This document shows, piece after piece, positions 33,906 to 38,040 of a DNA stretch of 60,017 nucleotides. The notes under the pieces are model-generated. The model did not search any database. It was not told the origin of the DNA and saw only the letters and a program-made list of their open reading frames with translations. Where the stretch lies: NCBI GenBank assembly GCA_019359435.1, contig JAHHHI010000095.1:1-60017 (forward strand), in the 5' to 3' direction. Numbering within the stretch: position 1 is the stretch's first letter; the number at the start of each line of letters is the position of its first letter. The DNA is from Kaiparowitsia implicata GSE-PSE-MK54-09C. Its GTDB lineage: Bacteria > Cyanobacteriota > Cyanobacteriia > Elainellales > Elainellaceae. Made by a program: the position numbers and the translations under genes.

Positions 33906-33947
33906 ACCTTACGAGCTGAAATCAGTGGGATTTGTATCCACATTTAC
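33906..33947 (-). promoter_or_regulatory. Canonical NtcA-activated promoter upstream of the Nit1C genes
   Basis: On the minus strand the sequence reads GTA-AATGTGGA-TAC (33947-33934), then exactly 22 bases, then TAAGGT (33911-33906). This matches GTA-N8-TAC-N22-TAN3T, the class II NtcA promoter of cyanobacteria. Transcription would start near 33899, leaving a leader of about 140 nt before the Sll0783-like gene at 33758. The box itself recurs by chance about once per 4 kb, but box, spacing and -10 together at this place are convincing. Confidence 0.75.
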
Positions 33948-34028: not shown

Positions 34029-35414
34029 TTAAATCGATAGGTCTGGCGTGCGATTCTCCCGAGCGAAGGAAACAGAACTCGCTAAACTGCGAGAACGCTG
34101 GGTTTTAATCATTGTCAGGTTAATGGTGAGTAAGAAGCTGGTGATACTCGCAATCACGATCACTGGCACCATTGCAGTATCTGATAGCACACTGAGGATG
34201 ACAGTCGTACTCACGGGCGTTTTGGTAATGGCAACGTTGACGGCGGCCATCATGCATACCATGCCAATGGTGGGATGTACTTGGGGAATACCAAGGGCGA
34301 TCGCCAACCCCACCGCAGCCCCAATGTAAAACAACGGAAAAATGAAGCCGCCGCGAAAGCCAGAGTGCAACGTGCAGCTAATCGCCAACATCTTGGCAAC
34401 GCCTACCAACAGCAGCATCGTGATGCCAAAGGTTGACCCCGTTTGAATGATGGTTTCAATCTCGCGTTCCCCAAAAAACAGCGTTTGCGGAAACACCAGC
34501 GCAATCAACCCGATGGATAGACCCCCCAACGTCGCCAGCAAAATGATGCGATGTTCAATCCAATGCGTGATCGCCCCAACGGAGCGAAAGATGAGGACAA
34601 ATAGCGCGGCAACCGCTGCCCCCACTGCACCTAGGACAGCCCCCTGCGCTAAATTCATCAACGTCAAAGACGGGATAGAAGTAAAGTGATACATTCCGCC
34701 AATGGATAGGCCCGTGGTGAGACGAAACACCACAAAACTCAGGATGGCAGACAGCGTGGCGGGAATCAGCGCTTCGTAATATTCCAAGCCTCGCCGATGG
34801 GGAATTTCTAGGGCGAACAATGCACCGCCCAGAGGCGCACCAAAGAACGCGCCTAGAGCAGCAGACATACCGCACAGTGTAAGGATGCGGGTGGTGTAGG
34901 CAGAGAGGCTGAGTCGTTCGGCAAGCCAACCGCCCATGCTGCCGTTGACCTGCACCAGCGGGGCTTCTGGCCCAGCGCTGCCTCCTGCCACAATTGAGAA
35001 TAGTGATGCGATCACCATCGCAGGCGTTTGGCGAATATCAATGCGGCCCGGGTCATGCACCTTGTCCACCACCAGCGACACTTCACCCGGTAGCCCCATG
35101 AGATAGAGGGTGAGGCCCACCAGCAAGCCGCCCAGGGTGGTGGCGATCCAAACATAGTTGGCTGCAGAAAACCGCGAGGTAAAGTAAGGGTCTAAGAGTT
35201 CGGGTAGGGTGTGCCACACCAGATGCATTGAGGCTTCTATCAGGGTGTAGTAGGCGGTGGCTACGATGCCGCCCACGATGCCGATTGCTCCAGCCCAAAG
35301 AATGATGTAGGCATAGGTGATGTCTAACTGCAGCGACGATAGGGATGAGGATGGGGCGATCGCGTCTGAAGTTTCAGCAGGAAGGGTGGACATAGGCTCT
35401 CCTGACAGCAGCAA
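34029..35414 (-). CDS. Divergent ClC-family chloride channel or anion transporter
   Basis: The 461-aa protein has about ten to eleven hydrophobic helices with ClC features. VAGGSAGPEAPLVQVNGSMGG lies near residue 140 in the place of the GREGP motif, and SGFRGGFIFPLFYIGAAVG (about 357) is the GxFxP motif. The usual GSGIP selectivity sequence is not seen (MGLPGEVSLVVDKVHDP stands at that position), and the gating Glu of GREGP is replaced by Ala in GSAGP, though a Glu follows two residues later. Transported ion and mechanism are therefore uncertain. It lies between the nitrate transporter and the Nit1C genes, all in the same direction, which invites the idea of nitrate or another nitrogenous anion. 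Met7 is an alternative start. Confidence 0.85.
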   Translation of the reverse strand: MLLSGEPMSTLPAETSDAIAPSSSLSSLQLDITYAYIILWAGAIGIVGGIVATAYYTLIEASMHLVWHTLPELLDPYFTSRFSAANYVWIATTLGGLLVGLTLYLMGLPGEVSLVVDKVHDPGRIDIRQTPAMVIASLFSIVAGGSAGPEAPLVQVNGSMGGWLAERLSLSAYTTRILTLCGMSAALGAFFGAPLGGALFALEIPHRRGLEYYEALIPATLSAILSFVVFRLTTGLSIGGMYHFTSIPSLTLMNLAQGAVLGAVGAAVAALFVLIFRSVGAITHWIEHRIILLATLGGLSIGLIALVFPQTLFFGEREIETIIQTGSTFGITMLLLVGVAKMLAISCTLHSGFRGGFIFPLFYIGAAVGLAIALGIPQVHPTIGMVCMMAAVNVAITKTPVSTTVILSVLSDTAMVPVIVIASITSFLLTINLTMIKTQRSRSLASSVSFARENRTPDLSI

Positions 35415-35805: not shown

Positions 35806-37305
35806 CTAGTAGCGATCGCCTGATTCTGCCTGAGCGGCAGCGGCCACAGGCACCGGCTCATCAGCATGAGACCCCGCCACCTCTTTCAGCGTGAACGCAT
35901 TGCAAAATGCCACAACCAGTGCAACACAGCCCAGCATTTGAAACAGCAGGCGATCGCCCGCTACCCCCTGCGGCAACAAGCTATAGATCGTCAGATAAAC
36001 CACCGCGCCTACATTGCCGTAGGCACCCACATTGCCCGCAATTTGACCCGTAATGCGCGGCTTAACCAGCGGCACAATGGCATAGGTAGCACCCTCTGCG
36101 GCCATCACAAAAAAGGAGGCCAGCATCGTCATCAGCACCACCAACACAATGGGAATCCCCTGCCCCAACATGCTGAATAGCAGATAGGCAACACCCGTGC
36201 CGCCAATGGTGGCCGCCAATGTCCATTTGCGGCTACCAATTTTGTCAGAAATCCAGCCGCCGCCGGGCCGCGCCACAATGTTCATAAAGGCATACATGCC
36301 TGCAACTGCCCCAGCCAGGGTGGCCGTCAGCCCAAACCCACGCTCAAAGTAGGTCGGCAGCATCGACACCACCGCCAACTCAGAGCCAAAAGTGGCCACA
36401 TAGGCGAGCTCCAAGTTAAACACCTGTGAAAACTTGTAGCGATCAGACGCAGGATAGCGCAGCGCTCCCGTCATCAGCGGTTTGTTGGCCTGCCAAATGT
36501 TGTACGCCTGAAACGCATACAGCGCCACCAAAGCGATTGCGACCCATATCAGCGCTTGGCGGTCGATAAACCCCACATTGGTCAAGCGCCACGCAATTAG
36601 CCCCAACACACCCACCAGCGGGATATTGGATATCAGCAAAAACCAAAAGTCGCGTTGACTGGTGACTTCCATGCCAGCACTGCTGGGCGGGCGTTGATAA
36701 ACCTTGCCCGGTGGAGTATCGGTCACGCTGAAATAATAAATCACCCCGTAAACCGCCGCTACAATGCCGGTTAGGGCGATCGCCAACCGCCAATTTACCT
36801 GCCCAGCCGACAGAAACGCCAGCCCTATTGCAATCGACGGCATCGTAAACGCGGCCCCAGCCGAGCCAAAATTGCCCCAGCCGCCATAGATGCCCTCAGC
36901 CAGCCCAATTTCTCTCGAATCAAACCATTCCGCCACCATGCGAATGCCAATCACAAACCCACAGCCCACAATGCTGAGCGCTAGCCGAGCATACACCATC
37001 TGCTCAAACGTTTGTGCCAGGGCAAACGCCATGCACGGAAACGCCGCATAAATGAGCAAGCAAGAATAGGTCAGACGCGGCCCAAACCGATCCAAAATCA
37101 TGCCCACAATAATGCGAGCGGGAACCGTCAGCGCCACATTGCAAATCGCAATCGTCCGCATCTGCTCATCCGTCAACCCCAACTCCATGCGGGCAGCTGT
37201 TGCCAGCGGTGCAAAGTTAAACCAAACCACAAAGGTCAGAAAAAACGCAATCCAGGTCATATGCAGGATTTTGTACCTGCCAGAAAACGACCATAACCCA
37301 GCCAT
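35806..37305 (-). CDS. narK: NarK/NrtP family nitrate/nitrite MFS transporter
   Basis: The 499-aa transporter has twelve hydrophobic helices of the nitrate-nitrite porter family. Nitrate signature one is EGIYGGWGNFGSAGAAF (residue about 139) and the second is visible in MNIVARPGGGWISDKIGS (about 327). The conserved Arg of helix 2 lies in VPARIIVGMILDRFGPRL. It brings nitrate into the cell across the plasma membrane. Cyanobacteria use either this permease or the NrtABCD ABC system; no nirA or narB is in the window. A GTA-N8-TAC box lies 105 bp upstream. Family-3 elements flank the gene on both sides in opposite orientation. Confidence 0.94.
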   Translation of the reverse strand: MAGLWSFSGRYKILHMTWIAFFLTFVVWFNFAPLATAARMELGLTDEQMRTIAICNVALTVPARIIVGMILDRFGPRLTYSCLLIYAAFPCMAFALAQTFEQMVYARLALSIVGCGFVIGIRMVAEWFDSREIGLAEGIYGGWGNFGSAGAAFTMPSIAIGLAFLSAGQVNWRLAIALTGIVAAVYGVIYYFSVTDTPPGKVYQRPPSSAGMEVTSQRDFWFLLISNIPLVGVLGLIAWRLTNVGFIDRQALIWVAIALVALYAFQAYNIWQANKPLMTGALRYPASDRYKFSQVFNLELAYVATFGSELAVVSMLPTYFERGFGLTATLAGAVAGMYAFMNIVARPGGGWISDKIGSRKWTLAATIGGTGVAYLLFSMLGQGIPIVLVVLMTMLASFFVMAAEGATYAIVPLVKPRITGQIAGNVGAYGNVGAVVYLTIYSLLPQGVAGDRLLFQMLGCVALVVAFCNAFTLKEVAGSHADEPVPVAAAAQAESGDRY

Positions 37306-37409: not shown

Positions 37410-37423
37410 GTATAGAGCGTTAC
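37410..37423 (-). promoter_or_regulatory. NtcA-type box upstream of the nitrate transporter
   Basis: The minus strand reads GTA-ACGCTCTA-TAC. A possible -10 (TAGCGG) begins 21 bases downstream and fits the TAN3T rule only in part. The distance to the narK start is about 105 bp. The box is perfect, the -10 weak, so regulation by NtcA is likely rather than certain. Confidence 0.55.
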
Positions 37424-37772: not shown

Positions 37773-37814
37773 GTATCTATAGCTACAGAATTGCTATGGT
37801 GAGAGTAATAACAC
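37773..37814 (+). promoter_or_regulatory. NtcA-type promoter for the 66-aa membrane protein
   Basis: The plus strand reads GTA-TCTATAGC-TAC (37773-37786), then exactly 22 bases, then TAACAC (37809-37814). This has the TA of the -10 consensus but not its final T. A start near 37821 would leave about 19 nt of leader, which includes the ribosome binding site ggag at 37827-37830 before the ATG at 37840. The close fit of box, -10, ribosome site and start supports the gene. Confidence 0.6.
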
Positions 37815-37839
37815 CTTTGATAATCCGGAGTACAACTTA

Positions 37840-38040
37840 ATGAAGTCCAACCAACATACGTCTCATCCCATCACGTCTAACCTAGACGTTTGGGCCGGTA
37901 TTGCATGGATCGCCGCTGCTGCTATCTTCGTTAGCTCACTGCCGATCTTGTTTAGTTCAGAACTGGCTTACTCCCCCGCCAATAACGATGCATTGCTGGG
38001 CGAAGCGGGTCTCTGGGGTGAGTTTGGACGCAACGACTAA
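37840..38040 (+). CDS. Small single-pass membrane protein, unrecognised, probably NtcA-controlled
   Basis: The 66-aa protein has a polar N-terminus, one transmembrane helix (WAGIAWIAAAAIFVSSLPIL, residues about 18-37) and a 28-residue tail with LAYSPANNDALLGEAGLWGEF. The Shine-Dalgarno sequence ggag is 9 nt before the ATG. It is the only plus-strand gene among minus-strand nitrogen genes, between the nitrate transporter and the MSMEG_0569 flavoprotein, with an NtcA-type promoter directly upstream. I do not recognise the family. Small proteins regulated by NtcA often bind and tune enzymes or transporters, so a modulator of the adjacent transporter is a hypothesis only. A photosystem-type subunit cannot be excluded. 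Confidence 0.75.
   Translation: MKSNQHTSHPITSNLDVWAGIAWIAAAAIFVSSLPILFSSELAYSPANNDALLGEAGLWGEFGRND

Follow-up and report, generated by a model that had tools for sequence, protein, structure and literature searches.

The small proteins IF7 and IF17, the products of gifA and gifB, are soluble inhibitors of glutamine synthetase. Plants and algae possess NAR2/NRT3, a small partner of the NNP-family nitrate carrier NRT2 that is needed for its activity. In Synechocystis, gifA and gifB are described as NtcA-repressed, and such repression is associated in gifA, gifB and rbcL with NtcA sites near the core promoter (PMC6331805). NtcA-activated promoters are described as having a box centred near -41.5 together with a TAN3T hexamer, while the entry for Anabaena gifA in the same source reads GTAGCATAAGATAC AGAATTCTTGC TATATT, i.e. 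GTAGCATAAGATAC-N11-TATATT (PMC3898017). NirP1 is reported as another small protein whose gene is repressed by NtcA and which targets a single step in nitrate assimilation (PMC10907346). Small proteins are also encoded among nitrate genes, as described for the DUF1830 protein PirN (PMC13205821), and in the nitrate/nitrite region of marine picocyanobacteria, where nirX is found.

The ABC-type nitrate transporter NrtABCD is described as being shut off by PII via NrtC/NrtD (PMC6603209). The permease NrtP is without NrtC/NrtD subunits, and no described switch for it was found in the open-licence literature, covered mostly at the level of listings. A small protein that tracks NrtP under opposite control would offer a testable answer to how NrtP is controlled, probably also in ocean picocyanobacteria. 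A candidate is encoded beside nrtP in the window, by which is meant the whole 60,017-nucleotide stretch of DNA analysed. The features of this locus are as follows.

35806 to 37305, minus strand: nrtP, the divergent neighbour, encoding a NarK/NNP-type nitrate permease (TIGR00886, E 2.7e-103).
37410 to 37423, minus strand: second GTA-N8-TAC box, on the nrtP side, with no TAN3T within 60 nt.
37773 to 37786, plus strand: NtcA box GTATCTATAGCTAC, the core of a palindrome CTGTA-N8-TACAG; the exact box occurs in 32 of 35 aligned upstream regions.
37795 to 37800, plus strand: predicted -10 hexamer TATGGT (TAN3T), 8 nt after the box; spacing of 6-12 nt in 26 of 32 members.
37827 to 37830, plus strand: GGAG, resembling a ribosome-binding site in sequence, 9 nt before the ATG at 37840.
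37840 to 38040, plus strand: 66-aa single-pass membrane protein, a candidate NrtP regulator; homologues in many genomes, with dN/dS of 0.07-0.26 among six relatives.
37897 to 37953, plus strand: codons of the transmembrane helix (residues 20-38), from hydropathy and a single-sequence AlphaFold2 model.
38002 to 38016, plus strand: codons of EAGLW (residues 55-59), the core of the C-terminal motif, with W invariant in 26 aligned members.

The box, the GGAG, the start codon and the 66-aa frame put forward in the original prediction are all present, and the frame translates as MKSNQHTSHPITSNLDVWAGIAWIAAAAIFVSSLPILFSSELAYSPANNDALLGEAGLWGEFGRND. On the 3' side the gene is followed, on the opposite strand, by that for the MSMEG_0569 flavoprotein (TIGR04046). 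Hydropathy bears out the claim of one transmembrane helix, placing a single hydrophobic helix at residues 20-38, and the AlphaFold2 model consists of helices only (12-44 and 46-64; mean pLDDT 74, pTM 0.36) and carries no information on a partner. The protein matched 0 Pfam families at E<=10, nothing in PHROG, no PDB sequence in a single-protein search and nothing in a plasmid search; NCBIfam returned two weak matches via the helix (E 0.046 and 0.06).

When 60 relatives were searched genome-wide, homologues turned up at four loci (L002, with 49% identity, L003, L004 and L005), all in the same taxonomic family, and the profiles A1 and A2 extended the family beyond single-protein matches. Its members are single-TM proteins of 60-84 aa; in genome family f2, which contributed no sequence to A2, most have about 100-113 aa. 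Common to them are a conserved helix rich in small residues and a C-terminal motif, E/Q-A-x-L-W-x-x-L-G, in which the Trp is invariant in 26 aligned rows. Five of the six f2 members read (L082, L083, L085, L086 and that of genome G287 in L123) combine one helix with two motif copies in about 100-113 aa, and the sixth (L084) has 65 aa and one copy. The f2 genomes, of 1.6-3.7 Mb and with an nrtP-narB-narM-moaC region (narM and moaC named by eye), appear to be the Prochlorococcus/Synechococcus group, and the class searched appears to be cyanobacterial. At L004 (839-1641), the copy adjoining narB is truncated and lacks the N-terminal part, another reading frame replacing its 5' part and promoter.

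Six closely related coding sequences from genus g95 gave dN/dS values of 0.07-0.26 in all 15 pairs, indicating purifying selection. A chance reading frame beside a chance box, for which it can be said that GTA-N8-TAC alone is only twofold above chance in the window, is refuted by the conserved homologues, this selection and the conserved promoter, and is practically inconceivable. The stretch from 37840 to 38040 is a real, conserved gene and, with its conserved homologues, low dN/dS and want of a curated family match, it is the unrecognised small membrane protein that had been proposed. No description of the family in print was found in the portions of the open-licence literature consulted. 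SynWH7803_1012, a 112-aa single-TM protein reported to drop 50-72-fold after 24 h without ammonium (PMC9430850), was weighed as an orthologue and set aside; its locus number suggests a place far from the nitrate cluster of that strain. Five weak matches (L007, L009, L014, L020 and L021) lay in unrelated frames and were dropped on reading, and a single-protein scan of genome contigs gave 109 pattern matches, none of which was confirmed.

Among the described systems, IF7 and IF17 resemble this family in size, and the 11-nt spacing between box and -10 given for Anabaena gifA lies inside the 6-12 nt of the family (PMC3898017). Unlike these soluble proteins, the 66-aa protein is a membrane protein tied to NrtP. 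Neither it nor nine relatives matched Pfam or NCBIfam, which may or may not include a gif model, at the curated cut-off. The relatives gave three weak Pfam matches, none of them DUF1830, and their strongest curated match, RnfG for L042, had E 0.0032 and scored 17 bits where the cut-off is 230. NirP1 differs in that it is reported to act on nitrite reductase, to have a folded part with beta strands and to have its NtcA site over the start point (PMC10907346). PirN is described as lying in the nrtABCD-narB region and as absent from Prochlorococcus (PMC13205821), and its DUF1830 profile was unmatched by the 66-aa protein at E<=10. Gene context separates nirX, which is described as grouped with nirA (and focA) (PMC10119275, PMC6370341), from a family that tracks nrtP.

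Single-TM small proteins are common in thylakoid and plasma membranes, and some other function there, such as that of a photosystem helper merely lying within the nitrogen regulon, might be envisaged. PirN is described as linking nitrate and PSII (PMC13205821), and profile A5 has weak PsbZ matches in the PDB (best E 0.073). None of the A5 matches to the PDB is significant, however, the best (E 0.017) being to a receptor helix. Homology to a known photosystem subunit, which the original prediction had named as grounds for its own refutation, did not emerge, no sequence match to known photosystem or NDH small subunits being found among curated families and solved chains. Given also the association with NrtP, such a function is quite improbable.

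That association was examined in 388 genomes of the class, of which 325 have NarB (E<=1e-120) and 147 have NrtP (E<=1e-100). At E<=1e-3, A2 matched 59 genomes, 56 of them with NrtP (Fisher p about 1e-23, a value that ignores shared ancestry). The three others are G032, with a truncated copy, G057, in which nrtP is a 179-aa remnant, and G139, where the match lies inside a 247-aa frame. Matches within long frames or with stops, such as that in G139 and one in a 690-aa frame of G017, were judged false by frame length and remain in the genome counts. The small-gene family is thus associated with NrtP, which upholds the originally suggested tie to nitrate uptake.

At E<=0.02, A2 matched 107 genomes, 86 with NrtP and 21 without. 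Among the 86, the match lay within 6 kb of nrtP in 57 and on another contig in 20; in the remaining nine it was far off or the place of NrtP was not listed. Those close to nrtP include weak f2 matches, even though A2 was built without f2 sequences. Profile A5, run on the 61 NrtP-containing genomes without an A2 match, added five at E<=1e-3. Four of these are f2 genomes in which the match lies 2.7-3.1 kb away from nrtP; in the fifth, G112, the match and nrtP are on different contigs. With 25 matched by A2 and four by A5, every one of the 29 NrtP-containing f2 genomes has a match near nrtP; outside f2, A2 matched 45 of 118 NrtP-containing genomes. Taking together A2 at E<=1e-3, the f2 matches near nrtP and A5 at E<=1e-3, a match is present in 75 of the 147 genomes with NrtP and in none of the other 72. 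Thus, either NrtP functions without the small protein or the search misses members, which may have escaped it by being short and diverged. Nine NrtP-containing genomes (L091, L092, L094-L098, L100 and L101) showed no member near nrtP or narB in the parts of the stretches read.

Genomes without NrtP were represented for A5 by 80 hand-chosen from those listed, 25 of them from f2. Matches numbered 22 at E<=0.1 and three at E<=1e-3: the truncated copy of G032, G287, in which nrtP is present but frameshifted, and G007, where the match lies inside a 308-aa frame. Several genomes with a damaged nrtP retain the small gene; the nrtP is truncated in G057 (L099, 4112-4651) and occurs as two overlapping pieces, as if frameshifted, in G287 (L123, 2027-3600) and G273 (G273:C1:902876-904352).

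In many genomes the small gene is no farther from narB than from nrtP. It lies between nrtP and narB in L003 and L005, and narB adjoins it in L003-L005, L037, L039, L048, L051, L053 and L090; a gene identified by eye as narM or moaC adjoins it in L044, L048, L083, L086 and L090. These arrangements would suit a membrane tether or regulator acting on the nitrate reductase NarB or on the supply of its cofactor. Yet narB is present in 325 of the 388 genomes, whereas nearly all matches at E<=1e-3 fall among the 147 that have NrtP, and in the window, L035, L040 and L045 the gene adjoins nrtP with no narB in the stretches read. A role at NarB is accordingly improbable. In L034 (G081) the small gene and nrtP are separated by a ribonuclease III-like gene (483-1241), identified by eye.

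The box lies 53 nt upstream of the ATG. GTA-N8-TAC alone is weak evidence: the window holds 8 such boxes against 3.85 expected, a number reached by 2 of 100 shuffles, and the chance rate at its composition is about 0.01 per 150 bases. The fuller pattern CTGTA-N8-TACNGAA-N2-6-TAN3T, modelled on this site and those of relatives, has a single occurrence in the 6.7-Mb genome, namely this site, and 0 in the reversed control. Exact boxes precede 32 of 35 aligned members and are absent in L048, L083 and L084; two further loci, L004 and L051, lack one immediately upstream, and 8 kb at the f2 locus L131 contain no such box. Members whose gene and nrtP lie on separate contigs (L002, L038, L044 and L047) retain the exact box.

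The original prediction took TAACAC, 22 nt after the box, as the -10 of an NtcA-activated promoter. This hexamer does not fit TAN3T, and the class II activated layout, with TAN3T 20-24 nt after the box, is therefore absent. TATGGT at 8 nt does fit, its spacing is kept in relatives, and transcription is predicted to start near 37807. Counting from the last exact box, TAN3T occurs at 6-12 nt in 26 of 32 members against 5.9 expected from 2000 mononucleotide shuffles (16 of 21 against 4.3 without genus g95), compared with 6 of 32 at 19-24 nt (5.2 expected) and 5 of 32 at 20-24 nt (4.3 expected). Within f2, L082 and L085 have a box and no close -10, and L086 has no TAN3T downstream at all. The -10 spacing is unlike that of an activator and like that of gifA, whose NtcA-repressed type, in which the box lies near the core promoter or overlaps it, is the layout seen here, the -10 being predicted. 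Control of an NtcA type is supported by the conserved box; activation is probably the wrong sign, and the spacing makes it quite likely that the small gene is repressed by NtcA in vivo. Boxes upstream of nrtP (15 in 11 hand-picked loci, a small, mixed control without a shuffle test) have TAN3T at 19-24 nt in 6, or 7 counting 25 nt, and at 6-12 nt in 2, and so lean weakly in the opposite direction. Five members (L037, L039, L041, L047 and L090) carry boxes in tandem, spaced by 31-32 bp (roughly three turns of the helix), which could act otherwise.

Because the gene travels with NrtP and carries a repressor-like NtcA switch, it is a candidate for the missing brake on nitrate uptake. With repression by NtcA, the protein would appear under nitrogen-rich conditions, at the point where NtcA no longer drives nitrate uptake; it would then dock on NrtP via its transmembrane helix and the C-terminal E-A-x-L-W-x-x-L-G motif, and uptake through NrtP would be lowered. 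Restraint is suggested because the gene is probably off with active NtcA and on in nitrogen excess, and is found almost only in genomes with NrtP, mostly close to it. That NrtP is the partner is fairly probable. An inhibitory effect would follow, by analogy, the logic by which IF7/IF17 and NirP1 restrain their enzymes, and the mechanism as a whole is finely balanced, leaning slightly towards doubt. Lysine and arginine counts in the 15-residue helix flanks (51 on the N side, 9 on the C side; N more positive in 21 of 26 members) probably indicate an N-in/C-out topology in most lineages; the window protein, with no K/R in either flank, and the f2 members, which are mixed, are ambiguous. The counts suggest that the motif lies outside in most members, where sensing of internal nitrogen status would be less direct, and this counts against an inhibitor.

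Association and adjacency with nrtP, and a conserved helix rich in small residues beside a NarK-family permease, would equally suit an accessory subunit made together with NrtP and needed for its assembly or activity, as NAR2 is for NRT2. NAR2/NRT3, however, is larger and eukaryotic, and no PDB relative of the family was found. The promoter layout is repressor-like, the family has no significant relation to solved proteins and, as about half of the NrtP-containing genomes lack a match, the protein is not an obligate subunit unless members were missed. A subunit of this kind is unlikely. Returning to an NtcA-repressed inhibitor, a more speculative extension, rather less likely than not, is that nrtP-type cyanobacteria, from large-genome species to small picocyanobacteria-like ones, share a dedicated transmembrane micro-inhibitor whose C-terminal motif would serve as a portable docking peptide. 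If true, it would be for uptake what the inactivating factors are for glutamine synthetase.

Both narK and the nitrilase (Nit1C) genes had been suggested as neighbours of homologues. The former was borne out. The genes recognised in the mostly short flanks read were nrtP, narB, narM and moaC, together with unrelated ones, and none belonged to Nit1C; a nitrilase link is not supported. In the window, GTAAATGTGGATAC-N22-TAAGGT (33906-33947, minus strand), upstream of the MSMEG_0572/Nit6803 (Nit1C) genes, has the textbook NtcA-activator layout; genome-wide the pattern occurs 26 times, no more commonly than its reversed control (29). A ClC-like channel gene (34029-35414, minus strand; below the NCBIfam cut-off) lies beside nrtP in the window, and another, recognised by eye, beside the small gene and nrtP in L089 (435-2009). 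In genus g95 the small gene is followed by one for a small secreted-looking protein with an EF-hand/dockerin-like stretch (L040, 1817-1987; L045, 1090-1263; L049, within 1347-1985), and several of the loci with this neighbour carry a further GTA-N8-TAC box nearby.
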